Shown here in pieces: positions 1 to 39,900 of a DNA stretch of 64,000 nt. A program made the position numbers and the translations under genes. The notes below the pieces were generated by a model. It did not search any database. It was not told the origin of the DNA and was given only the letters and a program-made list of their open reading frames with translations. Every line of letters begins with the position of its first letter. The stretch's first letter is position 1. Source of the stretch: Crossaster papposus (taxonomy: Eukaryota; Echinodermata; Asteroidea; Velatida; Solasteridae); contig JBAIAA010000119.1 of assembly GCA_037893245.1 (NCBI GenBank), positions 372,001 to 436,000 of the forward strand, in the 5' to 3' direction.

Positions 1-29
1 ACTAGTATTTGCCTCTCTTTTTTCAAGGT

Positions 30-1071: not shown

Positions 1072-1275
1072 CCTAAATAGCATTTCATATACCAAGTGGA
1101 TTTCTAAAAACATGGTGAACATTTTTAATAAGAATGTTTGGTATGTTTAGACCCCCAAAAAATCAGAAGAGCAAAGGACGGTGGATTTTGTTAAATCGGT
1201 TGACTTTTTTCAACAACAATGTTTGGTATTTTTGTACACACAAATCGGGAGCCAAGGACGGTGTTTGGTATAGCA
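1072..1275 (+). repeat. Dispersed repeat, copy 1
   Basis: The segment from the CACTTGGTAT-related region to GGTGTTTGGTATAGC matches, in opposite orientation, 33,556-33,725 (shared: ATTTCTAAAAA, AACATTTTTAATA-like, GGACGGTGGA, CAACAATGTTTGG). It carries the apparent seed of the 15-bp minisatellite found next to the other copy. Confidence 0.6.
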
Positions 1276-1636
1276 GAATGTTTAGTAAGCGGCGGCGTTG
1301 CACTGTATATAGGCATCCCTCTAAAACAATGTCTACCTGTACCCTGAGAGTATTTTGTACAGGATTTACTAGTGGAACTCATTATTTAGGACATATAAAA
1401 CACAGATGAACTCTGTATAACCCCAGATCGCTAGAGGCAATACCACAAGGTATAGTTCTGCAAATCACCTGGGTTTCCTCTGTGGTCAGCTGTGCCAACA
1501 ACCACAAGTCATGTTGTGAATTATAAACATAGTTCATGATGCAAAGGGAAATAACTTTAGAAATACCTTAAAACCCCCCACTTCCGAGAGTGGGTTAAAG
1601 ATCATATTAAACTTGGAGGATTCAGGATTGTTAGAG

Positions 1637-2020
1637 TTAAAGGTAGGATACACCATTGGTAATTGTTTGAATTATCATGAATGGGCGGATTTGGGGGGGT
1701 TGTGTTTTATAGTAAATATGTCCGAAGTTTAACAATCACGGATACTGAGAGAAGCAAGAACAAATGGCATAAATTGTTTTCAACCGGCGTCGAACAGTGG
1801 TTCTTATGTTGTTCTGGGGTTTGTTTGCGATCGCCGTCCGGTGATTGTGAATTTTGTTTTATAAAATTCAATTTTTCGGAACAATTACAGGATAACTTGC
1901 GCAATCATTTTGCTGGATGCCTACAATCATTATTTACTTTCAAATAAGCACGACATTTCTTAATAATTCAGTAGTGAAGATGTTCGATATCTGCAAATGG
2001 TGTATCCTCCCTCTAAATTA
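1637..2020 (+). mobile_element. TTAA-flanked MITE family A, copy 1
   Basis: Starts TTAA then AGGTAGGATACACCATTGG and ends with AATGGTGTATCC. The internal body (GATGCTGAGAGAAGCAAG, GATCGCCGTCC) is shared with the other copies. The right end is worn. Confidence 0.8.
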
Positions 2021-12976: not shown

Positions 12977-15900
12977 CTGGACAAGCAATGAAAGATGATT
13001 AACATGAGCTGGTTGGACATTCAGTTGAGATTACCTCTAAATTTCTACACTAAAAATAAACTGTGTTTTATATTTGCCTTGATAGGTGGGACTTTTACAG
13101 ATAATACACCGATCCAGTAGGCCACGCTAACTATAGCACCTGCCTATTAGCGTGACGCACCTGACCAATCACTTGCACAGTGCATTACATCCTAGTGTAA
13201 TTGTACTACATGTAGTACTTTGACTTAGGAAATAGCCAACAATTACCTTTCTCTTTTATAAACGGAACTGGAAATCGGATATATAATTAACATATATAGC
13301 AACACCACTCAACCATGACTATGATTAAAACCAGGCTGGTAATAGAATTGGGGCGTAAATTGAAACAAAAGGTAAATCAACAAAAAGTGTATGTTAAACT
13401 ATGCTGAAGTGAAGAATTTGTTGTCGGCCAAATTGGTGGCACTTTGTCGGAGCTTTAAATCATGCACTGTAATTGGTCATTTTTTCACGGGGTGTGGTTT
13501 ACTGGATGGGTCCATTTTGTACTTGGTACCTGTTGCTTGATTGGTCTTGTAGCTGCTGGACAATAACAAATAACAAGACAACGCCCCAAGTGAAACTTAG
13601 TTATGTACAACTTCTCCAGTGGTAGGCCTTATTGATGGCTATTGGATTCATCATTTCAGAAGTCCTCCCACATACGTAAACATTTCAACCTCTTCAATGG
13701 AGTTGTTGTTATTTAAAAAAAATTGTATTAACCAGTTCGCGCCGGATGACGTATATAAACGCCAACAATTCCCCAAATTCAAAACGGATGACGCATAAAC
13801 ACACCAAGTTCAATTTCGGAAATGTATGTCAGCAGCGAGCAAGGCCGGAAATGCGTAGGTGTGCTTCCCGGCACTATCGGCCGGAACCCGCTTTTGGTCG
13901 AGTTTCATTAAAAAATAATCCCGCACGTCGGCTCAGTGATGTTAAAATAATAAACTGGTTAATACATCCAACCAAAAAGTTCTCTCAACTACTCAAGGAA
14001 GAAACTTGACCGACAACCCAGATATCCATCGAAACCTCCCACAAAAAAAAAAAAAAAATGAATCTCACAAAGAGAGGGTGTGACTTTGACCTTGTAAATT
14101 GAATAACAGTCCCCCTCAGGATCCAAGCCTCCCCTGGTCTGATCCTAACCTGTCCCCTAAGGGTCCAAGCCTCCCCTGGTCTGATCCTAACCCACCCCCC
14201 TTGGGGTACGGGATAACCTGCTGACTGAAGACGTCATATCTGTTATAATCTAATTTGTTTCCATGCCTTTTGGGTTTCGGATCTCACAGGGAGACAACTA
14301 GCTGTGCGATTTGTTTTTAATGTTTGGAAAGAGGCTGGTTGTTTTGTTTAGACCAAGGCAAAGATTCTTCAACAGACAGGGAGCTGTATAAAACATTTAG
14401 ATTAACTGCCACTCAAAATCTTGAATAATCGTTAAAAAAAGTAGTTCTGCTTTGTGGAAACTTTTGTTTTTGTCTTTAACCCCAACCCCCCTCTGAGGTA
14501 TGCAAATTCATATTGAAATTAAAAGATTCAGCACTGTAAAGCTGGGAGCAAACGACATGCAAACTTTGGCGTTAACTGGCGTTTTTTGCCGCAAGAGTGA
14601 ACGCCTCTCACCGCAAGAGTTGGCGGCCAGCGGATCCTGGTCAGAGCACATAATGCTTTTTCTTGCATTTACTGGCGTTGAAGCGCGTTCACGCGCGACA
14701 AAAATCAAACATGATAGATATCTGGCGTTGAGTTGTGGCAAGTAGCGGCAAGTCGCGTTCTATAACGCGCGTTCGTAGCAGACGAGGGATTTTTCAGGCG
14801 TTCAGGACTGTTGCGGCAAAAAACGCCAGTCAACGCCAAAGTTTGCGTTTCATGTGCTCCCAGCTTTAGGGTTAGAAGATGTAAATTAGGAGCTACCTGT
14901 CCCCATTCTCCAAAGCTCCAAAGCGGGCAGGCTATCCCCGTATTACAAGCCTGGATGTTCTGTGGCCGGCTTTTATCAGAGCAAGTCTGGACGTCACCTG
15001 AATCATCCTGACAGATGACCATCCGTTGCCGCAGACCGCTGCCACAGGTCGACGAACACTGAAAAAAATAAAGACAAGACACGATTGAGTTTTGAGGAAA
15101 ATGTAACCATAGACATTTCTTCTAGAATATCTCAAGAATATCTCAAGTGCCTTTAGTCCTCTGTTCTATTCTCAATCTCCAGCTCTTCAGGGATGCAACC
15201 GTCTCACTAGCCATCCCAGAGGCCTTCATTATTCACTGTTTTTCACCTGCTCATTCTATTATACACGCAATCCTCCTGTGATCTTGCCACTGACTTTACT
15301 CCACCTCAGTGGTGTAGCTAGAATTGTTTCAGTGGAGGGCACAGAGGGGAAATCATGGGAGGGGTGGGGGGGGAATAGCTTTCTATGGTATGTCGAGTCT
15401 CTGTTTGGTTTGAAAAGAAAACAGGGATATCAAAGTTGTTTGTGGGGGGGGGGGGCACCTACAGAGGCACCATAATGTTTGTTTGAAGGGGGGGGGGGGG
15501 GGGGGGGGGGGAGGGGGCAGGGCACGTGCCCCATAGGCTCCCTCTTGGCTATGCCACTGCTCCACTATGCTTAAACTAGACCTTAGAAGCATGGCTTGGA
15601 TCAAGTTCGATCAAGAGCTATAGTTACACTAACTCACGCTAGTCGATGATGGTTGGACTAGTTTAGTCGACTATTAGCAACCAATTCGCGTTGGTTACAA
15701 TAGCAACATTTCCATGACATAGTGCAGTAGGAATCAACTATCCACGAAAAAATGGCAGACAACAAAACTGTCACTTTTGGTCATCATTATACAATAAGAA
15801 CGGCCGTTATGTAAGATATCCTTAATTACGCAATAACTATAATGGTGTAAATAACCGGAAATATCGTGTTGAAATATTGTTTAACCGGTGTCAGTACGAT

Positions 15901-18900
15901 GTTTTCGGTGCCACAAAAGTTTGACTACAGTTAGTCGCATTGCAACTTCACGGGGCATGCGCTAGATATGTCACCAACAACACCTAGTGAACTATTGGTC
16001 TTTGATCCAACTTGCTCCTGGATTTCCACCCGTCTCTCGCTCACCTTACTCCACTGTCCAGTTCGCCATCTTCCTCTCATTAGTGCTGCAGCTCTTTCGC
16101 TAGCCATCCCTGAAGCAACGGGTTGATCCACAGGACAATCCAGGTTACTACAGACATCTGTCTCTGATGGTTTGTCTCGCAGTTCGCAGTCCTCATCCAC
16201 AGCAATGGAGCTATCGCTGTTAACACACGCAACGTAACGGGACGTAGTGCCTTGTCCACATGTTACTGAACACTGCAAAAAGTAATGCAACATTCAATGT
16301 TAAGACCGGTTTATTTTGTGACGTCCAGGGCATATTTTTGCGCTGTGAAATTGCAAAAGTTTGCAGCAAATGTTTTGTGACGTCAAATTCGCAACGCTTT
16401 CATGTGAAGTATGAAGTATAATGTGTTATTTGTGGCTTGTTAAAATATTGTGTAAACACTATAATTTTTTACACAGAATAACAACAAGCATAATAAGCTT
16501 TGAAAATGAACTTTCCTGGCCAATGTTGAGCACATTCAATTTTTGTGATTTAAAAACATAAATTACTTTTTATAGTAACAATATTACAATTAGACATGTT
16601 TATTTGGAACACGTCAATCCACATTTTGTTTTGGTCAGCTCTACATCCCAGGGATAGAATACACCACAAGCAACGTTTGATGCAAACTCTTTGTACGCAA
16701 ACAAATTATTTCTGATAAGAGCAGAAAGAAAGTTTGAGGAATAGAAATTGAGGAACTAATGCGATCTCTCTCACATCCACAAATATTCACAAGTACATGT
16801 AATCAACAAGATGACACCTATCAACAAAGGAATCAACAAGTTCATTCCACTAATACCCGATTCCACTGCGCAGTCCTCCAGTGTGGACATGGTTTAATCT
16901 GACATCGTTCTATAACAGCTGGCCTATTGGCAGTGTTGAAATCTCTCTCTGATGACATCCACACCTATCAACAATTTATCAACAGATTCATTCCACTATA
17001 CTCACTCGATTCCACTGCCCAGTCCTCCAGTGTGGACATGGTTTAATCTGACATCGCTCTATAACAGCTGGCCTATTGGCAGTGTTGCAATCTCTCTCTC
17101 ATGACATCCACACCTATCCACAATTTATCAACAAGATCATTCCACTAATACTCACTCGATTCCACTGCCCAGTTCTCTAGTGTGGACATGGTATAATCTG
17201 ACATCGCTCTATAGCAGCTGGCCTATTGGCAGTGTTGCAATCTCTCTCTCATGACATCCACACCTATCCACAATTTATCAACAAGTTAATTCCACTAATA
17301 CTCACTCAATTCCACTGCCCAGTTCTCTAGTGTGGACATGGTATAATCTGACATCGCTCTATAGCAGTTGGCCTATTGGCAGTGTTGCAATCTCTCTCTC
17401 ATGACATCCACCGCCTATCCACAATTTATCAACAAGTTCATTCCACTAATACCCGATTCCACTGCCCAGTCCTCCAGTGTGGACATGGTTTAATCTGACA
17501 TCGCTCTATAGCAGCTGGCCTATTGGCAGTGTTGCAATCTCTCTCTCATGACATCCACACCTATCCACAATTTATCAACAAGTTCATTCCACTAATACTC
17601 ACTCGATTCCACTGCCCAGTCCTCCAGTGTGGACATGGTTTAATCTGACATCGCTCTATAGCAGCTGGCCTATTGGCAGTGTTGCAATCTCTCTCTCATG
17701 ACATCCACACCAATCCACAATTTATCAACAGATTCATTCCACTATTACTCACTCGATTCCACTGCCCAGTCCTCCAGTGTGGACATGGTTCAATCTGACA
17801 TCGCTCTATAGCAGCTAGCCTATTGGCAGTGTTGCAATCTCTCTCTCATGACATCCACGCCTATCCACAATTTATCAACAAGTTCATTCCACTAATGCCC
17901 GATTTCACTGCCCAGTCCTCCAGTGTGGACATGGTTTAATCTGACATCGCTCTATAGCAGCTGGCCTATTGGCAGTGTTGCAATCTCTCTCTCATGACAT
18001 CCACGCCTATCCACAATTTATCAACAAATTCATTCCACTAATACTCACTCGATTCCACTAATACTCACTCGATTCCACTGCCCAGTCCTCCAGTGTGGAC
18101 ATGGTTTAATCTGACATCGCTCTATAGCAGCTAGCCTATTGGCAGTGTTGCAATCTCTCTCTCATGACATCCACGCCTATCCACAAATTATCAACAAGAT
18201 CATTCCACTAATACTCACTCGATTCCACTGCCCAGTCCTCCAGTGTGGACATGGTTTAATCTGACATCGCTTTATAGCAGCTGGCCTATTGGCAGTGTTG
18301 CAATCTCTCTCTCATGACATCCACGCCTATCCACAATTTATCAACAAGATCATTCCACTAATACTCACTCGATTCCACTGCCCAGTCCTCCAGTGTGGAC
18401 ATGGTTTAATCTGACATCGCTCTATAGCAGCTGGCCTATTGGCAGTGTTGCAATCTCTCTCTTCAGAGATGTAGTTATTTTGATTACGGCAGCTGACGTA
18501 ACGTTCACGACTTCCATATCCACATGTTTTAGAACACTGAAAATTGTAAACAAAGTCAAGTCTTTGATCATATAATATGTGACTTCACAGGCACTATTTC
18601 ACCTGCTAACAATAGGATAACATGTGATTCTAGGAGCAAACATATGAAGCAAGATATAAGGCAGAGGGACTCCCCCTCTTTTGTGTTGGTCGTTGTGTTC
18701 TTTTCTTCAAATATCTGTGTTAGGTAACAATATTTAATATTTCTGGAGCGTGTATAGGGTATATGGACAAAACGGGGGTTTGCTCTGCCTTAAATCGTGA
18801 TGGATATAAAAGTAAAATATTTTTGTTACTAAAAATAAAAAAATGAAAGGTTCACAACGGAGGATGTGTATACACACACAATTGTTCCAAAAATCTAAAC

Positions 18901-21900
18901 GGATAACAGATAAACACGTCACGAGAAACGGCCTGCCTGGGCCCTGTGGGGTCGATGTTCGTGAAAAATAATCCTGCGTCTGGGTCCGGTAAATAAATAA
19001 AAAAAACGGCACGAACTGGTTATGAAGAATAAATCAGACAAACTTCCTTTGAGCTGATGAATACCCACCTCTGTCCACATCCCTGTGCGCCACTGACTGC
19101 TGTAACGTCGTCTTGGTTCCTCCCTAATCACCTCCATGGCACTAACCGGTGATGACTTGGGTAAAGGTCTTGGATCAGAGAGCTCTCTGGCAACCGAGAT
19201 GGTAGACGATGAGGAGGATGAGGGGTCAGCAAGTAACAGCTGACTGGACGATGGCCGAGGCTGACTGGACGATGGTTGAGGCTGACTGGACGATGGTTGA
19301 GGCTGACTGGACGATGGTTGAGGCTGACTGGACGATGGCCGAGGCTGACTGGACGATGGCCGAGGCTGACTGGACGATGGCCGAGGCTGACTGGACGATG
19401 GCCGAGGCGGTCTGGGCGACTGCCTGGGTGTCAGCGCTGAGGTTCTGCGGAGGAAAGCGGGAACCGGTGCTGCAGCCGTGGTGCGGGGAACTGTGGGAGC
19501 AGGTCTGACTGGTGGCTGTGTTTCTGGCAGATCGGTGACTGGTAAGGTAGGGGCGAGGCAAGTCGGCATGTGGCAGTCCTGACGATTAGATGGCTGGTTG
19601 TCAGGATTGCACTGATCGTCTGGGGTGGGGGTGTCGTTAGGATGACGACATTGGATACCCCTCAGCTGGTAACCCAGACCACAGGATACCGAACACTACC
19701 AATTCAACAATTTGAAGACGAATTAGTCCCATATTTTTTTCATAAAGTCCCATATGAGATAAGTGACTTGACTGAGAGAAGAAAATCTATTTTAAGTTAT
19801 TAAATGATTTAAAAACATGGATTAACTGGTTTGTGTCTGGTTTAAGGCGGCATTGCGCATCTTGAGCTAGATTATCTGGAAAGCTACTTTGCAAATCCTG
19901 GCTATAGCTGAATAATGTCAAGGATATTTTTTGTTTTGATATCGAGTTGCGTGCAAAACTTAGTTACAAAAAAATTTAACCAATTAGTATCTATTATCTC
20001 CATGTTAATTTGTGTACTGCCCAAAACTACCGCACTTCACAGCTTCATGGATTCACCAAGGAATATATCCACTATTATAACACAGGTGTTTATGGGTTCA
20101 ATAATTAAAGCAGAATTCCATTTTATTTATAGACAATCAGTTAAAGATCTCACCGGTCCCCAGGATCCATGCCGCCATACGGGACACTGTCCCAGCTCAC
20201 AATCTCTAGAGCTAGCTGGCATCAAGGTCAGGTCACACTGAGTGATGTCAACGATACTGTCGCCTTGGTAACAGTCCACCTGGCGCTGCATCGTCCCTTG
20301 GCCGCAGGTATTGGAACACTTGGGAAATAGGGACACCAACAAAGGCAAGTCTAAATTGAGTGTTTGAGAATAAAAACCTCTGAAACTAACAGACAGGTAC
20401 TAATAAGACATGGTGCGAGATTCAAGTTCAAGTGTTTGACCTTAACACACACGTTTTGTGTTACTTAAGAACAAGACCATCTCTGTTAATTTGCTGGTAT
20501 CTGCTATGCTTTTGCACACATACGATGAAATCTTTATCTCGAAGAAGGATCATCAAATCTTCATGTGCACATGCGCAGTTAGAGATTATTTATTTATTTA
20601 TATTTTTTTAAATGTATTTCTTTCAACATCCAACAGCGATATAGCGCCAATTACAGGATGGATAAGTAAGAAAACAAAAATGTGAAGAAGTTACAGTTTT
20701 AGAGGTGGGAGGAGAACCCTAGAAAAATATCTTGGAGAAAACCACGGAATCAGGCAGGACCCGAAAACCCAATCCACATATTTTTCCCAGGCGGGATTCT
20801 AACCCGGGTCACAGCGGTGGAAGGCGAAGAAAGAACCGCTGCGCCAACCTGACTCTCCAATACCAAACTTTAATATCAAACTGGCTTATTGCATCTTTAC
20901 CTGTTCCCACTGTCCTGCCTGCCACTTAGAGCATTCAGGCATCTTGCAACCCCTGACCGTCTCTGGCATTAAGGTCAGGTCACAGTTGACCAAGTCCACA
21001 TTCTGGCCGTCCTGGGAACAACTGACCCTACGCTGTCTCTCACCGGAGCCGCAAGACACTGAACACTGAGGATAAACACCAAATATGGAAAAGTCATAGA
21101 GCTATATTAAATTACTAGAGCGCTGGCTCGATGTACAAAGTGATGCGAGCTAGGCGCATCCATGTTTGTGCACAAACCTATGGAAACCTCAACATTTTGT
21201 ACGGCTTTTGTACGGCTCTTTGCATATCTGCGTTTGTATTCTATACAGTGCGTTACTGAAGCCGATACGCCCCAAACCAAAACGCACGATCAGCAAATGA
21301 GCGCAAACATTGCAAATGCGCGTGGGTATCTGCGCGCTGCAGTATTTTGCCGTGAATTTTTTTTCTAAACTGACATGACGCACGTGAAGTTGTTTGCGTC
21401 TGTTCTATTCGCACGCGCGTTGCATTTAGAGTACACTTCCAAAATTTAATCCATCTATTTTTAATATGTTCTACAACACGCACATAAATTCAAAATGTCT
21501 GCGCACACTATGGATTCAAAGTATCTCCGCGTGTAAGAATGAAGAGTTAGCACTCTAGTAATTTAATATAGTTCTATGGGAAAAGTCTAAGTCTACGACA
21601 ATTGTAACTGGAACAAACAGTTTCAGTTTAGTTTATTTTCACAGTACCACAATATCAATAACAATCATAATTGAGAATTGCAGATGAACATTTAGAGTAA
21701 AGATAAAGCAAATAATAAGTATAAAAGATGGTTGATACTGCAGAGGAACCCATAAAGAAGAGAAGCTAGTAAGGAATGGGCTGACAAATATGGTGAATGA
21801 ACAGTGGGAAAGATTACAAAACTCATGTATCTCAAGTGCGTCTTTACCTGTTCCCACTGTCCTGCCTGCCACTCAGAGCATTCAGGCATCTGGCAACCCC

Positions 21901-24900
21901 TGACTGTCTCTGGCATTAAGATCAGGTCACAGTTGACCAAGTCCACATTCCGACCGCCCTGGGAACAACTGACCCTACGCTGTGTCTCACCGGAGCCGCA
22001 AGACACTGAGCACTGAGGGTAAACAGCAAATGTAGAAAGTAAGAACATGTCTGAATCTCTTAGGGTAGAGCAACTACAATTGAAACAAACTGGAAAGTGA
22101 CAGTAACCTGTGTTGGATACGGCCCAAGATTTGAATATTTCCTTCGTGAAGAAGTTAACTTGTGAAGACTCGAGACATTGATGCACTACGGTAGTTTGAA
22201 TAGCCATAACCGTAGATAAAATGCCCTTGCTGGACAGAGTCTAACTTCAACATTGAGCACTTTACCATTGTTTGCAAAAAACAACAACAAATTTGCACTG
22301 GAATAACCTCTGAAAAATAAGATCAATAAATAAATTTACAGAAATCGTTGTGTTCTGAAGTAACATTTTTTTAAAAGCGTTTGGAAAGCTGAAGTGTTTT
22401 CAAATGTCTTGTGTCTCAAAACTTTTGTTTGAAAAAAGTTTCCATGGTCTTTTTGATTACATAGACAATGTTGGTTACCACACGTCCCCCATAGCTTTGT
22501 GTGCATTTATCTGCCACATCAATCCCAAGAGTAAACCATATAGAATCTTGTTGTGTACATATGCGCAATTGGAATGCCGAACCAGCTTATTACATTGGAG
22601 CTAGTCAAACAGCACAGGGCTAAGCTGAGTTGACCCAACACTATGAAGCCCGACTACGTGAAAACCTTTTGTTGGAACAAAAAACGTGAAAAGTAAACAA
22701 TAGACTTATCTTTCACGTATTAAAAAACGTGATAAGTCCACTTTTCACGTATGTCAAAGTATCACGTATTTGTGGAGCTAGCCTCGTTGCAAGGGTTGAT
22801 CTTTCACGTACAAAATACGTGAAAACTTTGCCGAGCGCGTGCCCATTGTTGGCGGATTAGCGGAGTGTCTTTTGTTGCAATAGGCGCTCTCGGACAATGA
22901 TTCTGCGGTGGCCCACATATTTGTAAGGATTTGAGACCGTTACCAAACCGTCCTGGGTAAGTGTTTGACCTAATTAACTTACAAAGGTTAGTTGTAAACG
23001 ATCAATGAATAACAACATTCCTATCACAAAACAGCGCGGTCTAGTCAAAACCCTTTCCTAAGTAGTCCGGCGGTCTAGTGAAAAAAATGCCAAGATAAGC
23101 ATAAGCGCACACGTCTTCAGAGTAGGCCTAAGCTTATACCGAAAATTGCAATACCAGTTCCTAAAAGATTACAATGACCCCACCGAGTTTCTTGAAAAGA
23201 CCAACATCAAAGCCTCAGCACCGCTCACCACTTCCCCAGTGAAAAGATTGTTATCCAATCCTGAGGTCCAGTTACAAAAATCTTCATTGTCATTGGGTGT
23301 TTACTTTCTTCTTTCATTCAGCACAGATGTTCTCTCAACACAAAGTGCTACTCAAAGAATGTTGTCCAGGCCCGCTTATCTCCAACAAAGATACATTGTA
23401 TTTACCTACGCCAACCCTTGCCAGGCGCGCAGACACAGATTTTATTTAATAGGCCCTGATCGGTTTATTCCTGGAGTGAATTTATTTATCTCTAGTCCCA
23501 ACCGATGGTCATTAAGTTGGCTGTAAGTAATTTTGAAAAAAAGTTTGCCGTACCTATTTACAAAATGTATTAAGATGAACAAAAAAAGGTTATATTCCTA
23601 AGGTTAATTATGTTATTGTCTTTGTTTTTAAAGAAGAAAAAAAGAGAAAGGATACTTAAAGACTTATTTGAATGAACTTCTAAAATTTTCCCAACCGATT
23701 CCAGGGGTAAATAATAATACGATTTTATTCTTGGTTTTTCTGATATCTAAGAAAATCGACATACAGGTACACCTGACAACTACAAGGCTAGCGAAATCAA
23801 TTCAAGGTTTATTTAATAACATTTATTTCTGGTTTCATTGTTTTTAAAAAAGGAAGAATACAAAAAATAAACGGAACCTTAACACCTAATATTTTGAGCT
23901 CCTAAACATTTTTCCAACAAATTTAAGGGTAAAATTTAATACGATTTATTTTCCGTTTTTCTTGTCTTTAACAAAAACGATCTATTTCGTGGAAATTGTA
24001 AGAGCTCGTTACATTTTTTAATTTATAATGGTTCCGTGATGTAATTTTACATAATAAACGCTTTATAGTGCAAGAGAAATAAAGTAAAACCACAGGAGAA
24101 ATATTCGGGAGTATTTTCCGAATATATTCCAAGTAGGGGCAAGAAATCCAGACAATGATTGACAGCTGACCTACAACATGTACTACATTGTATCAGCCAG
24201 TAGGCAAACATGTGGCCTACCATTACTTTGGAATTTCAATAGGCTGGGAAATGTCACTTTGTGGCATATAATTTACACCCAAATCCTGGTACTACTGCCG
24301 ATAAACGGCAATCCGTTATGGTTATACAAAACGGTGCTGTATGCTGTATGGTTGGCTTAGAAAACGTCATCATCGGAAAGAGTATGCTGCGCTTACTTCG
24401 GGTCCGTTCGCGTACAAAATCGACAACGGGTTCCAATTTTTGCGATCGAAAACAGTTTTTCACGGTCCTAAAGCGATCCATAATCAACAAGAATCACCAA
24501 ACGACAAGGTATGTATACAAAAGTAGACATTAAACAATCCTACCATACTGACAAAAAGTCCGTAAGGCCTACCATTTGTCGAAAAAATGTACTTTTAGCC
24601 TTAGGGGGGCATGTTGAGTTGGAATCCGAGACTTCGCTCGCGCGACCACTTTCCACGCCGTGTTGGGACGGCAGTGCCAGTGGTGTGCACACCGTACCAC
24701 CGCCGTCCCAACATAGTACACGATGATCTCGTAATTCCCGTGAAACAAGCGACGATGCAGCGTTAGAAAACCTGCGTTTTAACGTCAATCTGTGCAAAAT
24801 TGTGTCCCAATTTCGTAACTGATGTTGAATTTATTAACATTCAAAGACAATACGTGATATCAGATACACCAATTAAACATTTTTAGTTGTGAATTTAAAG

Positions 24901-27900
24901 CAAAACCGTTCCCATTTTACGAAAGACAACTTAAGCGAGCGTGTTGCCATTTTGGGCGATAACATTTACCTAAACAGGGGTTGTAAATTTTGTGACGCTT
25001 ATCTGGCGCGTTTTGTGCTTAAATAATTCATTTTAACGTGGCAATAATCCAATTAATAAACGTTTAGGGTAATAATTTTCTTCTGGCATATTGTTTTTTT
25101 TATAATCGTGATTATTTCTTCTGCCTCCATTTTTACAAATATTTTATCATTATGGACATCCCTATGTGAGGAGTGGAACATGATTTTACTACATGTACTA
25201 AATTTTAGTCTTTTTTAAATAATAAGTATATTTTGTTTGATAATTTCTGTTTTATTGATTTTGAATAAGTTGTTATTGGTTCTTTAGTATTTCCTTTTGT
25301 TGTTATACTCCAATCAGTAAATCGCATTTTCTTGGCTCTACACCTTCTCTTTGTAACAAATTAAGGCAAATAATTTGTTCAATTATTTTTGCAGCTTTAC
25401 TGTGGTCCTCCTCTTGTGGCAGTGATGTTCCAGTATGGATACCACCACCAGTGAGCCTGAAGATGAAAAAGGCTAGGACTACCTTGATGATGCAAAACTG
25501 TCATCCATAGTTGAGCCTCATGCCCGTAGTACATCCATCTATTTTTCAACATTAATTGGGGACAAATAAGGTTCCCTTAACAATCAACATTTTTGCATAA
25601 ATTATGCAAATTAGGGGATTTCAATATAAACTAATTATCTGTAGTTAAGCAGGTTTGATTATTACAATTTCTTGCATCATTTAATTAAAGTATTTGTCAA
25701 GATAAACTGGGGAAAAATGAGAAAAAAAAGCCGGGGGTTTGGAAAAGGCCCACATCCCTGCTGCGATCAAAGACGTTTTTCAAATCATTAAAATCGTCAC
25801 TTAGTTTGGTAAAATTTTCACGCAACAAGGTACTTAAATAAAGTGAATATTTCACTTTTATCTGTACGTACGAGCTTTACGTGCAATAGTTATGGTATTG
25901 TCCCCGACAACCAACTGGCAATTCTTAACAAATTTGGGAATTTTATTGTGTAAAAAAGGACGGAACTTTACCCTCCAAAATCCTCCAATATTAAACATTG
26001 CATTATTTGGAGGATTTAGAAAAATATACGGTAGACATGCAACCCAGCATTTATATGTCGATATGTAAAATATTCCCATAATTAATTTAGCGTTTTGGAA
26101 TTGAGATTCAGTGTCGCAATTATTTCCGGTCTCCCAAAATTTAGTGGTCTTTTCGTGTTGAATTGGATAAATACTGTATTTTTGTATTATATGTTGCAAA
26201 AGTGGAACAAATGCTTGTGAATTCATGTAAAATGCTTGGACAAGGATATTTCACTGCAAATGATTAGGCCAAACTTTCAATTTTAATTTTCTTCAAAAAT
26301 GATAATTGTTTTTATGGCGCAATTAAAAAAAGAAAACTATTTTGACACCTTCAAATATAATTTCCAAGGTTAAATTGAATCTACCTGTATACGCCTCTCG
26401 AATACAAAAATACAGTATTTATCGAAAGGAACCAGTTCGCGCCGGGATTATTTTTTCATCGCCGAGCCGACGGGCGGGATTATTTTTAACGAAACTCGAT
26501 CCGAAGCGTGTTCAGGCCGATAGTGCTGGGTAGCACACCCACGCATTTCCGGCCTTGCGCGCTGCTGACATACATTTCCGAACTTGAACTTGGCGTATTT
26601 ATTCGTCATCCGTTTTGAATTTGGGGAAATTTTTGCGTTTATATACGTCATCCGGCGCGAACTGGTTAAAAACAAATTATACATCGTTTATTAGCATTAG
26701 CCCAGATTTTCAGTAAAAATGAATTTAATTAGCAGTGCCTCTTTTTTTTCTCGAGTTGACACAGATCTAATTCAACACATAAAGACCACTAAATTTTGGG
26801 AAACTGGAAATAATTGCGACACTGAATCTCAATTCCAGAACGCTAAATTAATTATGGGAATATTTTACATATCGACATATAAATGCTGGGTTGCATGTCT
26901 ATATTTTCCTAAATCCTCCAAATAATGCAATGATTGATATTGGAGGATTTTGGAGGGTAAATTCCGTCCTTTTTTACACAATCAAATTCCCAAATTTGTT
27001 AAGAATTGCCAGTTGGTTGTCGGGGGAAAACCTTTTGCATGGAAGTTGTCAAAATCCGCCCTAATATCAGTTGTGAATGAGCAATCGACACAAAATTTGG
27101 ACTGAGTGAGCAGATTGTAGATTCATGTCAGTACAACAACTTTCAGACAAAAGGGATTATGTTTACCCAAATTAATTGAGGAATTATACATTATTTTCAG
27201 TGTATTTATCATTTTTTGGACTAAAAACATGGTAAAGTACCCATGAAATCTGTTACAACGCGCCAATTGTTACAAAAGTTGGCGTATGATATCGCACGAT
27301 GAATATTTTCGTGCTCTGAAAATGTCGGTAAATTCCGTCCCTTTTTACACAATCAAATTCCCAAATTTGTTAAGAATTGCCAGTTGGTTGTCGGGGGAAA
27401 CCTTTTGCATGGAAGTTGTCAAAATCCGCCCTAATATCAGTTGTGAATGAGCAATCGACACAAAATTTGGACTGAGTGAGCAGATTGTAGATTCATGTCA
27501 GTACAACAACTTTCAGACAAAAGGGATTATGTTTACCCAAATTAATTGAGGAATTATACATTATTTTCAGTGTATTTATCATTTTTTTGACTAAAAACAT
27601 GGTAAAGTACCCATGAAATCTGTTACAACGCGCCAATTGTTACAAAAGTTGGCGTATGATATCGCACGATGAATATTTTCGTGCTCTGAAATTTTCGGTA
27701 AATTCCGTCCCTTTTTACACAATCAAATTCCCAAATTTGTTAAGAATTGCCAGTTGGTTGTCGGGGGAAACCTTTTGCATGGAAGTTGTCAAAATCCGCC
27801 CTAATATCAGCTGTGAATGAGCAATCGACACAAAATTTGGACTGAGTGAGCAGATTGTAGATTCATGTCAGTACAACAACTTTCAGACAAAAGGGATTAT

Positions 27901-30900
27901 GTTTACCCAAATTAATTGAGGAATTATACATTATTTTCAGTGTATTTATCATTTTTTGGACTAAAAACATGGTAAAGTACCCATGAAATCTGTTACAACG
28001 CGCCAATTGTTACAAAAGTTGGCGTATGATATCGCACGATGAATATTTTCGTGCTCTAAAATTTTCGGTAAATTCCGTCCCTTTTTACACAATCAAATTC
28101 CCAAATTTGTTAAGAATTGCCAGTTGGTTGTCGGGGGAAACCTTTTGCATGGAAGTTGTCAAAATCCGCCCTAATATCAGCTGTGAATGAGCAATCGACA
28201 CAAAATTTGGACTGAGTGAGCAGATTGTAGATTCATGTCAGTACAACAACTTTCAGACAAAAGGGATTATGTTTACCCAAATTAATTGAGGAATTATACA
28301 TTATTTTCAGTGTATTTATCATTTTTTGGACTAAAAACATGGTAAAGTACCCATGAAATCTGTTACAACGCGCCAATTGTTACAAAAGTTGGCGTATGAT
28401 ATCGCACGATGAATATTTTCGTGCTCTGAAAATGTCGGTAAATTCCGTATCTTTTTACACAATCAAATTCCCAAATTTGTTAAGAATTGCCAGTTGGTTG
28501 TCGGGGGAAACCTTTTGCATGGAAGTTGTCAAAATCCGCCCTAATATCAGTTGTGAATGAGCAATCGACACAAAATTTGGACTGAGTGAGCAGATTGTAG
28601 ATTCATGTCAGTACAACAACTTTCAGACAAAAGGGATTATGTTTACCCAAATTAATTGAGGAATTATACATTATTTTCAGTGTATTTATCATTTTTTTGA
28701 CTAAAAACATGGTAAAGTACCCATGAAATCTGTTACAACGCGCCAATTGTTACAAAAGTTGGCGTATGATATCGCACGATGAATATTTTCGTGCTCTGAA
28801 AATGTCGGTAAATTCCGTCCCTTTTTACACAATCAAATTCCCAAATTTGTTAAGAATTGCCAGTTGGTTGTCGGGGGAAACCTTTTGCATGGAAGTTGTC
28901 AAAATCCGCCCTAATATCAGTTGTGAATGAGCAATCGACACAAAATTTGGACTGAGTGAGCAGATTGTAGATTCATGTCAGTACAACAACTTTCAGACAA
29001 AAGGGATTATGTTTACCCAAATTAATTGAGGAATTATACATTATTTTCAGTGTATTTATCATTTTTTTGACTAAAAACATGGTAAAGTACCCATGAAATC
29101 TGTTACAACGCGCCAATTGTTACAAAAGTTGGCGTATGATATCGCACGATGAATATTTTCGTGCTCTGAAAATTTTGGTAAATTTCGTCCTTTTTTACGC
29201 AATCAAATTCGCAAATTTGTTAAGAATTGCCAGTTGGTTGTCGGGGACAATACCATAACTATTGCACGTAAAGCTCGTACGTACAGATACAAGTGAAATA
29301 TTCACTTTATTTAAGTACCTTGTTGCGTGAAAATTTAACCAAACTAAGTGACGATTTTAATGATTTGAAAAACGTCTTTGATCGCAGCAGGGATGTGGGC
29401 CTTTTTTCAAACCCCTGTTTTTTTTCTTCTCATTTTTCCCCAGTTTATCTTGACAAATACTTTAATAAAGGGGTTGCATTGACGTCACGCGCGCTACGCG
29501 TACGCGCTAATCGCACGTACAACCATGCCGAGCGGTGAGGTCAAACAAAGTGTGTTTGACCTCACCGCTCCGCCCGGTTGTACGTGCGATTAGCGCGTAC
29601 GCGTAGCGCGTGTGACATCATATGCATTAACTTTATTAAATGATGCAAGAAATTGTAATAATCAAACCTGCTTAACTACAGATAATTAGTTTATATTGAA
29701 ATCCCCTAATTTGCATAATTTATGCAAAAATGTTGATTGTTAAGGGAACCTTATTTGTCCCCAATTAATGTTGAAAAATAGATGGATGTACTACGGGCAT
29801 GAGGCTCAACTATGCATGGATGACAGTTTTGCATCATCAAGGTAGTCCTAGCCTTTTTCATCTTCAGGCTCACTGGTGGTGGTATCCATACTGGAACATC
29901 ACTGCCACAAGAGAAGGACCACAGAAAAGCTGCAAAAATAATTGAACAAATTATTTGCCTTAATTTGTTACAAAGAGAAGGTGTAGAGCCAAGGAAATGC
30001 GATTTACTGATTGGAGTATAACAACAAAAGGAAATACTAAAGAACCAATAACAACTTATTCAAAATCAATAAAACAGAAATTATCAAACAAAATATACTT
30101 ATTATTTAAAAAAGACTTTAGTACATGTAGTAAAATCATGTTCCACTCCTCACATAGGGATGTCCATAATGATAAAATATTTGTAAAAATGGAGGCAGAA
30201 GAAATAATCACGATTATAAAAAAAAAAATATGCCAGAAGAAAATTATTACCCTAAACGTTTATTAATTGGATTATTGCCACGTTAAAATGAATTATTTAA
30301 GCACAAAACGCGCCAGATAAGCGTCACAAAATTTACAACCCCTGTTTAGGTAAATGTTATCGCCCAAAATGGCAACACGCTCGCTTAAGTTGTCTTTCGT
30401 AAAATGGGAACGGTTTTGCTTTAAATTCACAACTAAAAATGTTTAATTGGTGTATCTGATATCACGTATTGTCTTTGAATGTTAATAAATTCAACATCAG
30501 TTACGAAATTGGGACACAATTTTGCACAGATTGACGTTAAAACGCAGGTTTTCTAACGCTGCATCGTCGCTTGTTTCACGGGAATTACGAGATCATCGTG
30601 TACTATGTTGGGACGGCGGTGGTACGGTGTGCACACCACTGGCACTGCCGTCCCAACACGGCGTGGAAAGTGGTCGCGCGAGCGAAGTCTCGGATTCCAA
30701 CTCAACATGCCCCCCTAAGGCTAAAAGTACATTTTTTCGACAAATGGTAGGCCTTACGGACTTTTTGTCAGTATGGTAGGATTGTTTAATGTCTACTTTT
30801 GTATACATACCTTGTCGTTTGGTGATTCTTGTTGATTATGGATCGCTTTAGGACCGTGAAAAACTGTTTTCGATCGCAAAAATTGGAACCCGTTGTCGAT

Positions 30901-33900
30901 TTTGTACGCGAACGGACCCGAAGTAAGCGCAGCATACTCTTTCCGATGATGACGTTTTCTAAGCCAACCATACAGCATACAGCACCGTTTTGTATAACCA
31001 TAACGGATTGCCGTTTATCGGCAGTAGTACCAGGATTTGGGTGTAAATTATATGCCACAAAGTGACATTTCCCAGCCTATTGAAATTCCAAAGTAATGGT
31101 AGGCCACATGTTTGCCTACTGGCTGATACAATGTAGTACATGTTGTAGGTCAGCTGTCAATCATTGTCTGGATTTCTTGCCCCTACTTGGAATATATTCG
31201 GAAAATACTCCCGAATATTTCTCCTGTGGTTTTACTTTATTTCTCTTGCACTATAAAGCGTTTATTATGTAAAATTACATCACGGAACCATTATAAATTA
31301 AAAAATGTAACGAGCTCTTACAATTTCCACGAAATAGATCGTTTTTGTTAAAGACAAGAAAAACGGAAAATAAATCGTATTAAATTTTACCCTTAAATTT
31401 GTTGGAAAAATGTTTAGGAGCTCAAAATATTAGGTGTTAAGGTTCCGTTTATTTTTTGTATTCTTCCTTTTTTAAAAACAATGAAACCAGAAATAAATGT
31501 TATTAAATAAACCTTGAATTGATTTCGCTAGCCTTGTAGTTGTCAGGTGTACCTGTATGTCGATTTTCTTAGATATCAGAAAAACCAAGAATAAAATCGT
31601 ATTATTATTTACCCCTGGAATCGGTTGGGAAAATTTTAGAAGTTCATTCAAATAAGTCTTTAAGTATCCTTTCTCTTTTTTTCTTCTTTAAAAACAAAGA
31701 CAATAACATAATTAACCTTAGGAATATAACCTTTTTTTGTTCATCTTAATACATTTTGTAAATAGGTACGGCAAACTTTTTTTCAAAATTACTTACAGCC
31801 AACTTAATGACCATCGGTTGGGACTAGAGATAAATAAATTCACTCCAGGAATAAACCGATCAGGGCCTATTAAATAAAATCTGTGTCTGCGCGCCTGGCA
31901 AGGGTTGGCGTAGGTAAATACAATGTATCTTTGTTGGAGATAAGCGGGCCTGGACAACATTCTTTGAGTAGCACTTTGTGTTGAGAGAACATCTGTGCTG
32001 AATGAAAGAAGAAAGTAAACACCCAATGACAATGAAGATTTTTGTAACTGGACCTCAGGATTGGATAACAATCTTTTCACTGGGGAAGTGGTGAGCGGTG
32101 CTGAGGCTTTGATGTTGGTCTTTTCAAGAAACTCGGTGGGGTCATTGTAATCTTTTAGGAACTGGTATTGCAATTTTCGGTATAAGCTTAGGCCTACTCT
32201 GAAGACGTGTGCGCTTATGCTTATCTTGGCATTTTTTTCACTAGACCGCCGGACTACTTAGGAAAGGGTTTTGACTAGACCGCGCTGTTTTGTGATAGGA
32301 ATGTTGTTATTCATTGATCGTTTACAACTAACCTTTGTAAGTTAATTAGGTCAAACACTTACCCAGGACGGTTTGGTAACGGTCTCAAATCCTTACAAAT
32401 ATGTGGGCCACCGCAGAATCATTGTCCGAGAGCGCCTATTGCAACAAAAGACACTCCGCTAATCCGCCAACAATGGGCACGCGCTCGGCAAAGTTTTCAC
32501 GTATTTTGTACGTGAAAGATCAACCCTAGCAACGAGGCTAGCTCCACAAATACGTGATACTTTGACATACGTGAAAAGTGGACTTATCACGTTTTTTAAT
32601 ACGTGAAAGATAAGTCTATTGTTTACTTTTCACGTTTTTTGTTCCAACAAAAGGTTTTCACGTAGTCGGGCTTCATAGTGCAATAAGCTAATCAAACACA
32701 CTCTTCATAACATTTAGACAAATATCCATCTCATTGTTGAAGGAATTCTTAATGAATGATAAAGGCTTTAACTCACCGGTCCCCACTCTCCCTGGTACCA
32801 GTCTGTACAGTCAGCCAACTCACATGGCCGCGTTGTCTCCAGCATCATGGTGGGATCGCATAGGTTGATGTCAACCTTCTGGTTGCCTTGGTAACAGTTG
32901 ACTGTCCGTTGTTGAGTTCCCTGGCCACAGGTTACTGAACACTGACAACAATAAAACAAAAGCCACAACTTAACAAGAATCCACTAATTATAAAACCTTC
33001 TACTTTACATTGGCTAAATTGAAAAAGATGCCAAGTTTTTCAAAATTCAATTTTCTCTCACAAAACTTCTGGAAATAATACTTTTTTTCAAGCCAATTTA
33101 TTGAGAACATTTGACATTGAGCTTTTGTTTGACCCCAGTTAAGAAATCCAGTTAATTTGTTTTGTTTAGATGTACGGTTTGGGGGTTTGAACAATTTCTT
33201 ATTTCAGATGTTCATATTGAAAGGAGTTCTTCTGTTCTATGTAAACATGTATAGGTAAAAACACCTTTACATTCAAACCTAAGGAACTCTTGAAATAAAT
33301 TTTCTAAAAATTATCTCGACTCTCCATAGACTTTATACATAACTGTTGAAGTAGCGTCAGTATACAACAGTGGACCTCCGCTATACCCAACACCGCTATA
33401 CCCAACACCGCTATACCCAACACCGCTATACCCAACACCGCTATACCCAACACCGCTATACCCAACACCGCTATACCCAACACCGCTATACCCAACACCG
33501 CTATACCCAACACCGCTATACCCAACACCGCTATACCCAACACCGCTATACCCAACACCGCTATATTGTTTGTGTGCACAAATTACAAAACATTGTTATT
33601 GAAAAAAAGTCAACGGATTTAACAAACTCCACCGTCCTTGGCTCCTGATTTGTGTCCAAACATTGTTATTGAAAATATGTAAACATATTTTTAGAAATCC
33701 ACTTGGTATATCAAACGCTATTTAGGCCATTTTCAATTCCCGAACGTCAAACCCACTAATGTAGGCCTACCGGCAGCTCAAAATCACATTCAATATACCG
33801 AACAAAGTCTGTGGATCCTGTGATGTTGGTTATAGCGGCATTCCACTGTCCTACATTCTTTACAAGAAAAGTAAAATAATAGTTAGTTTGTTGTATAATA

Positions 33901-36900
33901 GTCAGGGATGTAGTCAAGTCCATCACAAGTCCCTGCAAGTCCCTGCAAGTCCCTGCAAGTCCCTGCAAGTCCCTGCAAGTCCATCACAAGTCCTTCAGTT
34001 CCAATTCAAATCACAAGCTATTCAAATCAGCTTTAACACAAGCATTCCTTTGTCATTGTTCATCCAGTTACTTGTGACTGCCTTTATGAAGAGACTTGTG
34101 ACTGGCTTCACAAAAGGACTTGTGAACGGACTTGCAGGGACTCGACTACAACCCTGATAATAACTACGTACCATTGGATTTATTGTTACCACTCATCCTA
34201 AGAAATTAGACTTGCTTACCAGTACCCAGTCCTCTCCTTTCCAAACAGGGCATTCAGCTATCTGACATGACATCACATTATTGGGTTTAGAAGACGCATT
34301 GCACCGATTGCTGTCAACAATTTGGTTGCCTTGGTAACAGTTGATTGACTTCCGCTTCTCGCCTTCGTCACAGGTGGCTGAACACTAAACATCCAACAAA
34401 AACAAATGACTACAACTACTAAACTTCACTGTTTTTTTGGGTGGTCATTTAAGGTTCACTTTTTCTGGGGCAGTCATTTAGGGTTCACTGTTTTTTGGGT
34501 GGTCATTTAGGGTTCACTGTTTTTTTGGGTGGTCATTTAGGGTTCACTGTTTTTTTGGATAGTCATTTAGGGTTCACTGTTTTTTTGGGTGGTAATTTAG
34601 GGTTTACTGTTTTTTGGGTGGTCATTTAGGGTTCACTGTTTTTTGGGTGGTCATTTAGGGTTCACTGTTTTTTGGGTGGTCATTTAGGGTTTACTGTTTT
34701 TTTGGATAGTCATTTAGGGTTCACTGTTTTTTTGGATAGTCATTTAGGGTTCACTGTTTTTTTTGGGTGGTCATTTAGGGTTCACTGTTTTTTGGGTGAT
34801 CATTTAGGGTTCACTGTTTTTTGGGTGATCATTTAGGGTTCACTGTTTTTTGGGTGGTCATTTAGGGTTTACTGTTTTTTGGGTGGTCATTTAGGGTTCA
34901 CTGTTTTTTGTGGGTGGTCATTTAGGGTTCACTGTTATTTGGGTGATCATTTAGGGTTCACTGTTTTTTGTGGGTGGTCATTTAGGGTTCACTGTTTTTT
35001 GGGTGGTCATTTAGGGTTCACTGTTTTTTGTGGGTGGTCATTTAGGGTTCACTGTTTTTTGGGTGGTCATTTAGGGTTCACTGTTTTTTGGGTGATCATT
35101 TAGGGTTCACTGTTTTTTGGGTGGTCATTTAGGGTTTACTGTTTCTGGGGCAGTCATTTAGGGTTTACTGTTTTTTGGGTGGTCATTTAGGGTTTACTGT
35201 TTTTTGGGTGGTCATTTAGGGTTTACTGTTTTTTGGGTGGTCATTTAGGGTTCACTGTTTTTTGGGTGGTCATTTAGGGTTCACTGTTTTTTGGGTGGTC
35301 ATTTAGGGTTTACTGTTTTTTGGGTGGTCATTTAGGGTTTACTGTTTTTTGGGTGGTCATTTAGGGTTTACTGTTTTTTGGGTGGTCATTTAGGGTTCAC
35401 TGTTTTTTGGGTGGTCATTTAGGGTTCACTGTTTTTTGGGTGGTCATTTAGGGTTTACTGTTTTTTGGGTGGTCATTTAGGGTTTACTGTTTCTGGGGCA
35501 GTCATTTAGGGTTTACTGTTTTTTGGGTGGTCATTTAGGGTTTACTGTTTCTGGGGCAGTCATTTAGGGTTTACTGTTTTTTGGGTGGTCATTTAGGGTT
35601 CACTGTTGTTTGGGTGGTCATTTAGGGTTCACTGTTTTTAAGGCAGTAATTTAAGGCAGTGTTCATCAGGCAATATGACAAGTTGTTTTTGCAGCAGCTC
35701 ACAAACAGTCTCTACCCTGGTCCCTACCCTTACAGGTCCCTATTTATACTCCTGGGTGGAGAGAGGCAATTGTAGTAAAGTGTCTTGCCCAAGAACACAA
35801 GCACCATGTTCCTCTGTATCTGTTCAATACCAATTACAAATGCATACAGGTCAGACGCTGTAACTATTGACTCTGGTGTTCCACAAATCAACAGAAAGAG
35901 TTGCTTTCAATCCTGGTTCACTCACCGGTCCCCATTCTCCCTGGTGCCATGCTGGGCATTCAGCCGTCTCACACGATAACACGCTATCAGGCTTGCTGGC
36001 CTCGTCACACTGGCTTGCCTGAACCTCTCGGTTGCCTTGGTAACACCCCACAAACCTCCGCTTCTCTCCTTCACCACATGTTTCAGAACACTAAAACCAG
36101 ACGAAGATAAATTTGTCACGTCACTTAATAAAACATAAAACAGGTTCATATATACCGGTACTTAACATGAAAGCAAATCCGATGTGACATCATCAATTGA
36201 CATGATTCGCTATCAAGCCTAGTATAAGCCTGCCGTGACTCATGCGGACAATAACATTCAGTGACTTTCAACAGACTTTTCCATGGCCAAAATCTTGTTA
36301 ACCAGACAAACAAGAAACCAAAGCAATACATCTTTGGAAATCAAAATGCTTGCATCAGCTAAATTTGTCCCATCTCATTTGCTTTTAAAAATCAGATTTC
36401 GGATACAAAATTATGAATATACAAAGTTTAAAGGTAGGATACACCATTTTAAGAAATAAAATTTTTCACTACCAAATTTTTAACAAATCTTTTACTTGTT
36501 TGAATGTAGATAATGATTTTAGGCATCCATCAAAATGATTGCCCTAGATATCCTGTAATTGTAAACAAAAAATTTACAACGAGAACAACTGCCCGACGCT
36601 GGTTAAAAACAAACGCCGTTTTTCTTGCTTTTTTCTCTACATCCATGATTGTAAAACTTTGGACAGGTCAGTTAAACGATATTTACAAAAAAAAAAAAAA
36701 CCCACCCATTCCTGATAATTCAAGCAATTACCAATGGTATATCCTACATTTAAATCTATAATAAATTAGTCGTTATAAAACCCTTGCCGATTTCCATGAC
36801 CTTTCACTATGAACATCTAACAAAAGAAACATGTTGAACCATGAAAATACATTGATACTTGGCACTAAATTCATTAAAAAAAATCCACAACTTTCCCAGG

Positions 36901-39900
36901 CCGCAGGAAATGGGAAACCCTGCTTAGGAGTTCACCCCACCCCACCTTCAACCCCTTTGTTTTATAGGTGAGAAAAACAGACCTATGATTACGGGTCTGA
37001 ATGTAGAATTTACGACATCAATTTTGGGCTAAACGTAATGTGACAAAAAAATACTTAGAATGTTCAAGTAAAATGTGTACCTCTCCCCAATCTCCATGTT
37101 TCCAGACGCCACAATCTATCATTTGACACACCCTGCCTGTGGTTGGAGCTGAAATCTGGTCGCACTCATCGACATGCACAACTTGGTTACCACGGTAACA
37201 ACTGACTGTTCGTAGTTGGGTCCCTTGACCACAGGTCACTGAACACTATTAAGGGGGAGGGGGAGGGGGACACAAAGTCAATTATCATCAAATTCCAAAT
37301 GTAAAGAGAAAGACATTTTTGGCAAATGTTGATTCTTGATTAACCCTTTAAGCTTTTAACCAGTTTGTGCCGGGATTATTTTAACATCACCGAGCCTTTT
37401 TATGTCATTTAATGCAATATTTTGAAAGAAAATGCAATTTGTAGGTATCACTGAAATGTGACTAATGTGGTCCTTTCAATTACCTCTCCCCATTCAGTGT
37501 GTTGCCAAGCCGCACATTCCTGCATCCGACACAGCAACAAAGAATCTGGTTTCTGGTCCACAACGCAGTCACTATCGTCAATTTTCTGGTTGCCTTGGAA
37601 ACAACTCACCCGCCTCTGTCTCTTCCCTTGTCCGCAGGTCACAGAGCACTGGATGGGAAGGTCAAATGTCAAAGGTCATTTAAAGACCAGATGCATGAGT
37701 TTATTTGATGTACGAACTTAAAATTTAAAGTGTGGGAAATTTGAAATGACTCACTGGTCCCCAGTCACTCGCCAGCCATTTAGCACAGTCTCCAACATCG
37801 CAGGGTACCGTTGACTCTGGCATCTGGCTACGATTACAACGACTAGAGTCGACGACGTAGTTGCCTTGGTAACAACTGACCAATCGTTGCTTCTCCCCTT
37901 GGCCACAGGAAACGGAACACTGTTTAGAGAAAGGACAATGCAGTTTTGTCTCTAAGAGTGGATATTACTTTTCATGTTAAAATGGGAATAATGGAAGATA
38001 TCAAACTGCTTTAATATTGCATGCTTGGTGCTTTTAATCAATTCGTGCCAGATGACATATACACGCAAAGTTTTCCCCAGATTAAAAGCAGATGACGCAT
38101 AAACACGTCACGAGCAAAACCCCAAAATGTCTGTCAGCAGCGAGCAAGGCCGGAAATGCGTGGGTGTGCTTCCCAGTACCATCGGCATGAACCCGCCCCG
38201 TATAAAGTTTCATTAATAATACTGGCGCTTGTATTTTACCACCACTAAAGTGCTGGTTGATTCTGATAGACCTAGTATGGTTTATTATTAACAGCAGCAG
38301 TGCATAATGAACAAATGATCAATCAGATTCTCCCAGCAGTGCTTCAGGCCTTCCGGTCTAAGTCCATTTTACTTCATCAACATTTAGTTAAACCCGGCCT
38401 GCAAGACCACGTGCCACCCAAAAATGGAGTGGCATTTGGAGTTATTCTATAACAAATTATTTTCTATAAAACAAAAAATCCATTGTTCATCAAATTAACT
38501 AGTAACCACAACGAATTGACTATGGTTACCTCAATGAAGCAACTCAATTCCATTCATCAAATAACTAGTAACAATTTTCAAGAGAGAAAATAAATAAAAT
38601 AAAATGATGTTTTGTTTCTTACTGAGCTCCATTCTCCCACGTGCCAGAATGGACAATCGGCGACCTGACATGACCTGGTAGTCTCTGGCATCAGGCTGAG
38701 GTCACATTGAGTGACCTCTGTTTGCTGGTCACCTAGCATACATATGACTTGTCTGTGCTCGGTGCCTTGATCACAAGTGGCTGAACACTGGAGAGACATT
38801 CATTCAATAAGATGCATTTGAGTTATATGGGTGTCTTTGTCTACAATTTAGGGCCTTATCAAGATCTGTTTCTTTGCTCTTTGAACATTAAACCATACAC
38901 TATCAGGCAAACATTTACAGCTAATCCTTTGATTTAGACATTAAAAGCTTAACAAAGTTTCCGAGTAATAAACTAAGCTGAAGTGTAAAATATACTGAAT
39001 GATACTTTAATATATTTACACCACGTAATCTTTTAAATCAAACTTTTTGGATAATTGCAAAAGGTATACTGTCTCTTTCAAAGAAAAGATTAAAAGTAAC
39101 GCCCAGTTCATACCTAATGTGTAGCAAATTTGTTAAGGTAACGGAGAATGTCACAAAGAAACTTCAATTGTTGACGTCATGAAATTCACTTTGCATTTGC
39201 ATGAAGTATGAACCAAGCTTAACTGCCACTCACTGGTGCCCATTCTCCTTGATGCCAGAATGCGCATTCCTCCATCTGACACGCCGTTGTGGCTTTTGGC
39301 ATTAAAGTCCGGTCACACTGAGTCAAGGATACTACCTGGTTGCCTTGGTGACAGCTGATGGACCGTTGCATTTCGCCATTGCCGCAGGTTACTGAACACT
39401 GAGGTCAGAGACATGTAATATTTAGAGTTGTATAGTTAAGTTTATCAAACATCATCACAAAGTCCCATGATAATGTTATAACAAGCCAACCACAAGTCAC
39501 TAAGACTGAACTTGTGATTGACTTGTGAGATCGACTCGACTACAGTACTCATATAATAATTCTTGACAGCATTGTTATAGGTTCATTAATTGGTCGTAAC
39601 AACTCAACTGTCTTCAACTAACCTGACTCCATGGTTCAGCAGCCCATATCAGACAGGACTGTGTGTTACATCTCTCTACAACTAGCTTGGTGGAGCTGTC
39701 ACAGTTACTGTCCTATCTTTAACTAACCTGACTCCATGGTTCAGCAGCCCATATCAGACATGGCTGTGTGTTACATCTCTCTACAACTAGCTTGGTGGAG
39801 CTGTCACAGTTACTGTCCTATCTTTAACTAACCTGACTCCATGGTTCAGCAGCCCATATCAGACATGACTGTGTGTTACATCTCTCTACAACTAGCTTGG

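Follow-up and report, generated by a model that had tools for sequence, protein, structure and literature searches.

The TU elements of sea urchins are foldbacks whose outer arm contains 15-bp repeats and whose target duplications are 8 bp long. Other animal foldbacks include Tetris of Drosophila virilis, for which the available part of the source gives terminal inverted repeats (TIRs) of up to 1,735 bp, 8–10-bp duplications, three complete copies and tandem units that also form satellites; the same paper cites sea urchin foldbacks (PMC4079207). In Galileo, a P-superfamily element of Drosophila, the longest TIRs belong to non-autonomous copies, as far as the excerpted source goes (PMC3573991). 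The stretch analyzed here, 64,000 nucleotides of the starfish Crossaster papposus (contig JBAIAA010000119.1, or C119:372001-436000; hereafter the window), carries in an intron a 10-kb palindrome with CACTA ends, one copy of a family that is, with a probability of about 0.87, a non-autonomous CACTA-kind DNA transposon turned giant palindrome.

The palindrome and its family

The whole foldback element occupies 22639..32680 of the window (10,042 bp; this and other features given without a sign have no assigned strand). Its left end, CACTATGAAGCCCGACTACGTG, starts at 22639 and the reverse complement of CACTATGAAGCCCGACTACGTG ends at 32680, the termini reading CACTATG...CATAGTG, with a target site duplication, CAA, on the left (22636..22638) and on the right (32681..32683). 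The arms pair between element positions 1–3053 and 10042–6992 in an alignment of 3,057 columns that is 99.5% identical (5 mismatches and 10 gap columns), and a further inner stretch pairs at 95%; chance cannot account for arms this long. The CACTA ends, the CAA duplication and the near-identical giant arms had all been proposed in the initial annotation, and all hold. The left arm, of a type termed alpha, spans 22639..26188 (+; element positions 1–3550) and stops at a deletion junction; the right arm, of the beta type, spans 29177..32680 (−) and alone contains an extra 170 bp (29467..29636, core 29471–29625), a mostly palindromic insert resembling a miniature inverted-repeat transposable element (MITE) that serves as the beta-arm marker.

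Genome-wide searches covered the 1.02-Gb assembly, which has one match to bindin (PF02084, E 9.5e-32) as against none in 14 control genomes; bindin is known from sea urchins and sea stars, in keeping with an echinoderm source. With at most 2 mismatches, the first 27 bp of the element occur at 119 places (61 + 58), as against none for the reversed control, and all 40 scored matches to its first 241 bp (the best 40 of 756 candidates) are 99–100% identical. Among the 100 ends listed of the 119, there are 26 inverted pairs (52 ends) whose members are no more than 30 kb apart. Some of these are short relatives, e.g., one of 2.2 kb on C217; long pairs occur on C429 (18.8 kb), C48 (20.3 kb), C479 (24.9 kb) and C1229 (28.3 kb). 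Ten of the 14 other close inverted pairs among the 241-bp-end matches were read as full copies, giving 11 copies with that of the window; a check proposed in the initial annotation, the search for other genomic copies with the same ends, thereby yielded ten. All ten are palindromes, of 12,655–15,390 bp, and are more extreme foldbacks than the window copy: their arms measure 5.0–9.4 kb (4,972–9,425 bp, inserts included; the shorter arm, 4,972–6,904 bp) and enclose loops of 282–310 bp, which in nine of the ten are within 4 bp of 286 bp.

The arms of one copy are unequal because their arrays of a 370-bp unit differ in size, from 1 to 13 units. In the ten full copies, where units are mirror-oriented in both arms, left/right counts are 5/3, 5/3, 13/1, 4/9, 3/3, 4/11, 4/6, 7/5, 2/6 and 10/4; the window copy has the array in one arm only (0/6; 6.2 units at 26956..29246, +). 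The unit has at least 288 matches genome-wide; among the matches listed, many belong to the oppositely oriented, paired arrays of known copies and no array outside an element was identified, although not every place was tied to an element.

The window copy is a deletion derivative of the longer family palindrome. Its left arm ends at element position 3550, where it is joined to the inner right half via a 4-bp TATT common to both sides (26185..26188); the left array, the loop and most of the inner sequence are missing. Beside the former center lies a remnant of the inner arm (26189..26429), and within the remnant sits a 240-bp dispersed repeat (26430..26669) that has relatives near window positions 13728–13951, 38034–38221 and 57759–57947.

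Matching 3-bp duplications flank nine of the ten copies having two intact ends: CAA (window), GCA, TAA, ACA, TAT, ATA, TAA, TTA and CTA. Joining the two flanks of c531 yields a 180-bp sequence that is found in full, at 100%, at 25 other places; for c226, the joined flanks match 15 places across the junction at 98%. These two insertions struck repeated DNA, and their empty sites fix the element boundaries and the 3-bp duplication. For c441, the joined flanks gave one weak match, 75%, across the junction (best 40 of 4,481 candidates).

On two contigs, end pairs recur at equal spacing: 137850–153239 and 337197–352586 on C790, and 89466–105208 and 168451–184193 on C1090. The pattern points to segmental duplication or to haplotypes left unmerged by the assembly.

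Superfamily, transposase and arm history

The family fits CACTA (EnSpm) in having CACTA...TAGTG termini, 3-bp duplications and short subterminal repeats in both orientations. The last are ACGTGAAA/TTTCACGT octamers at 22655..22822, with a mirror image near 32497–32664: the outermost 250 bp of the left arm contain six, in both orientations, and the rest of the arm none, and the top 7-mer count is not reached in any of 2000 single-base shuffles. Features of the foldback class are present as well: the arms make up most of the element in all ten full copies and contain tandem repeats.

The same genome holds relatives with the same or a related first 22 bp and subterminal layout, namely L055 (C217), L058 (C429) and L056 (C460). 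L055 has TTA on both sides and shares about 240–390 bp per end with the family around a different interior; L058 shares the first 388 bp (501 bases read), and the alignment with L056 covers about 130 bp. Another, related type of end, CACTGTGAGGCCCGAA.ACGTG, is present at 116 places (at most 2 mismatches; control, 0), and one end of this type aligns with the first 133 bp of the family with a score of 107, the highest of 30 shuffles being 40. A search with a degenerate pattern was uninformative (322 matches per strand vs 630 in the control). L056 (C460:224200-225400) is the end of a related CACTA-type family present at four places on one contig; about 0.9 kb inward it has a tandem array with a unit of roughly 24 bp that contains CCACGTGCCACCAGGGCAC.

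The element itself offers no recognizable transposase. The coding scan covered the frames of the window element and the centers of the ten full copies. Among the 25 window-element frames of at least 70 aa, 17 match no Pfam family over the cut-off and the other eight are mirror copies; no match over the cut-off was obtained either with the 146-aa frame that is the longest free of stops in the ten centers. Sub-threshold matches alone were found, to YGGT (E 0.013), Phage_p2_ORF12 (E 0.069) and TPR_17 (E 0.15). Elsewhere in the genome, Transposase_21 (PF02992) has 27 matches, 26 of them over the cut-off and 10 in open frames of more than 600 aa. In the search for an autonomous partner, the 22-bp end with a non-family continuation was found at only four places, all of the related C460 type, and no family end motif lies within the 3 kb read around an open transposase frame on C131. 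The proposed mechanism is one in which a CACTA transposase supplied in trans would bind each end at its terminal 22 bp and its subterminal ACGTGAAA motifs, and would move the element by cut and paste.

Markers that distinguish the arms bear on how the palindrome arose. The 155-bp MITE is present in one arm only in 8 of the 11 copies, the window copy included, in both arms of c790, and in neither arm of c531 and c137. Four inner single-nucleotide polymorphisms, chosen as markers on 14 of the 22 arms, are consistent in 21 of the 22, the right arm of c547 being a mosaic. The beta arm lies on the same side of the loop in all seven full copies that combine an alpha and a beta arm. On these sequence patterns, the simplest reading is that a single ancestral palindrome was amplified as a unit, over repeated palindrome making. 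It may have formed a single time, when half of a relative with shorter ends was duplicated in inverted orientation; changes would since have passed between arms by gene conversion, and the intronic window copy is a later deletion derivative.

An 84-bp sequence after position 388 illustrates such exchange. It is present in both arms of c338 and c471 and missing from both arms, with an identical junction, in the other 9 of the 11 copies, and the end of the relative L058 continues into it (44 bp, 97.7%). Because the arm types are common to copies with and without the deletion, the mirrored loss is most simply read as a deletion copied across by inter-arm gene conversion; the marker patterns of c790, c531 and c137 allow the same interpretation. 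Within-copy arm divergence (0.07–1.7%) overlaps between-copy divergence (mean 0.62%). Arm-by-arm concerted evolution, tried as the chief cause of arm likeness, is unsupported.

Several observations weigh against the preferred reading of the family. Among the 100 ends listed, 48 have no partner within 30 kb, and the 11 copies were picked for near-identity to the window end, so that older, odder copies are under-sampled. The flanks of c790 mismatch (TAA/TTA), c165 has no duplication and is missing the final 2 bp of one end, and six of eight joined flanks gave no full-length match (best 40 of 4,481 candidates scored). Judged by eye, with 100 of the 119 and 100 of the 116 ends listed, not one of the 27 PF02992 matches is enclosed by listed ends, so the transposase has to be inferred. 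Finally, the nearest arm is the partner within the same copy for only 5 of the 22 arms, and conversion is therefore not dominant: much of the arm likeness is the youth of the sampled copies.

A bolder proposal, which we regard as doubtful, is that of a self-mending noncoding palindrome: it would stay mobile since its kilobase arms copy each other, a damaged transposase-bound end being repaired from the other, and, transcribed within introns, it would give rise to kilobase hairpins with possible trans effects on the animal's entire CACTA lineage.

The host intron and rival explanations

The host gene lies on the minus strand. The exon at 32777..32941 (−) has its donor GT beginning at 32776, 96 bp from the element, and the next exon beyond the element is at 21848..22012 (−), with a donor GT at 21847. 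The intron between them is 10,764 bp long, about 720 bp once the element is subtracted; the intronic position and the distance to the donor agree with the initial annotation. Since both flanking exons match TSP1_ADAMTS above the Pfam cut-off and ADAMTS_CR_2 is matched by an exon farther upstream, the gene is one of ADAMTS type that carries many TSP1 repeats. No empty allele of the window locus was found in the assembly, where the search turned up nothing beyond the two flanks and 11 weak matches to repeats. The pre-mRNA could form a duplex of about 3 kb at the window copy and, since the shorter arm limits pairing, of at most 5.0–6.9 kb at full copies; Dicer, ADAR or splicing effects at such a hairpin, like the siRNA and editing roles raised in the initial annotation, are conceivable.

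Further repeats lie in the window. A tandem array at 16832–18462, of about 10.8 units of 150 bp, runs from a TSP1 exon into its intron; the units contain the 3′ half of the exon and the donor (GTGAGT in seven of the eight motif-caught units), making the array a series of repeated half-exons bearing 5′ splice sites. A second array of this sort, of 105-bp units in two blocks about 1.1 kb apart (39611–40041 and 41173–42224), repeats a TSP1 exon end with the donor CAG|GTTAGT in 14 of 14 motif-caught units. Within it lies a 222-aa frame (40510–41175, −) with a GIY-YIG match just below the cut-off (21.7 vs 22.6 bits), which by eye resembles the end of a Penelope-like element. Just past the host exon is a perfect minisatellite, 15 bp × 12.5 (33378–33565), that recalls the arms of TU foldbacks, and further out a 29-bp × 41 array (34425–35639).

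The window copy is most likely neutral for the host gene, and the host function of the element is most likely none: a mobile parasite and a recent intronic insertion. Its place within an intron so near a donor, with 3-kb arms able to pair, might be taken to mean that the host has adopted this copy as a source of double-stranded RNA or a splicing regulator, but near-identical ends on many other contigs leave nothing special to this gene, and a copy so young and nearly identical to the rest makes adoption very unlikely. Nor is the palindrome easily dismissed as a fold-back chimera that duplicated one arm during assembly or library preparation, even though long perfect palindromes are a known product of some libraries. 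The arms of the window copy differ at the alpha/beta markers and the 170-bp insert, which recur on other contigs; they are hence distinct sequences, told apart by markers. Together with the target duplications in 9 of 10 copies and the intact empty target copies that exist elsewhere for two insertions, this leads us to reject an artefact, which the initial annotation had named as what might overturn its reading, as extremely improbable for the family.

A head-to-head insertion of two elements, or a composite made from two copies, would account for the distinct marker sets of the two arms. Such an origin is highly improbable given that one duplication surrounds the whole in 9 of the 10 copies with intact ends, that symmetry continues into the loop (286 bp, within 4 bp, in nine of ten full copies) and that the beta arm keeps to one side of the loop in seven of seven. 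It is unlikely, if less strikingly so, that the CACTA ends are look-alikes and the foldback belongs to another superfamily, be it TU-like, P-like, Mutator-like or PIF/Harbinger. The plan of Tetris, as given in the excerpted source, is identical (outer flank, tandem array, inner arm, small middle) and TU foldbacks come from sea urchins, but the duplications here are 3 bp, not the 7–10 bp of Tetris and the P-like Galileo; six of the nine (GCA, CAA, ACA, CTA, TAT, ATA) are unlike the TWA of PIF/Harbinger; and no 15-bp tandem repeat is reported within the element. A non-autonomous CACTA-kind transposon turned giant palindrome stays the preferred reading.

Comparison with known systems

Instability is expected of long palindromes. 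With dozens of natural copies whose arms carry their own markers, arm-to-arm conversion, array turnover and palindrome deletion become directly measurable, and the intronic copies offer a natural setting in which to see whether animal cells dice, edit or tolerate kilobase hairpins in their pre-mRNA. A family this young poses the questions of how long mirror-image DNA stays identical, how it moves and how it behaves when transcribed.

The initial annotation had found the foldback form unfamiliar in animals. This is true only in part: animal foldbacks are known (Tetris, Galileo, Tm1), whereas no CACTA foldback or giant palindrome in animals was found in the open-licence literature, among the matches listed. 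TU elements, foldbacks from the same phylum, differ in that the present family shows neither their 15-bp arm repeats nor their 8-bp duplications. Against Galileo, the available part of the source points to a likeness in long TIRs whose tandem repeats change in each arm independently of the other, and to a difference in TIR length (up to about 1.26 kb), transposase superfamily and duplication size (7 bp; PMC3573991). Tm1 of root-knot nematodes, as excerpted, is likewise an animal element with foldback-like composite TIRs of variable length, but has a Mutator (Phantom) type transposase and 9-bp duplications (PMC3169594). From what the Tetris excerpt describes, the likeness there extends to non-autonomy and to arms built of an outer flank, variable tandem repeats and an inner part around a small middle; the unit is about 220 bp in Tetris and 370 bp in the present family, its number varying between copies in both, whereas TIRs of at most 1,735 bp and 8–10-bp duplications stand against arms of at most 9.4 kb and 3 bp.

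With CACTA/EnSpm elements the family has in common its CACTA ends, 3-bp duplication and subterminal repeats in both orientations, and departs from them in having, instead of short ends and a gene body, kilobase arms without an internal transposase. Foldback arms measure 1–2 kb in the cited literature, to the extent excerpted, and up to 9 kb here, in a lineage with 3-bp duplications.

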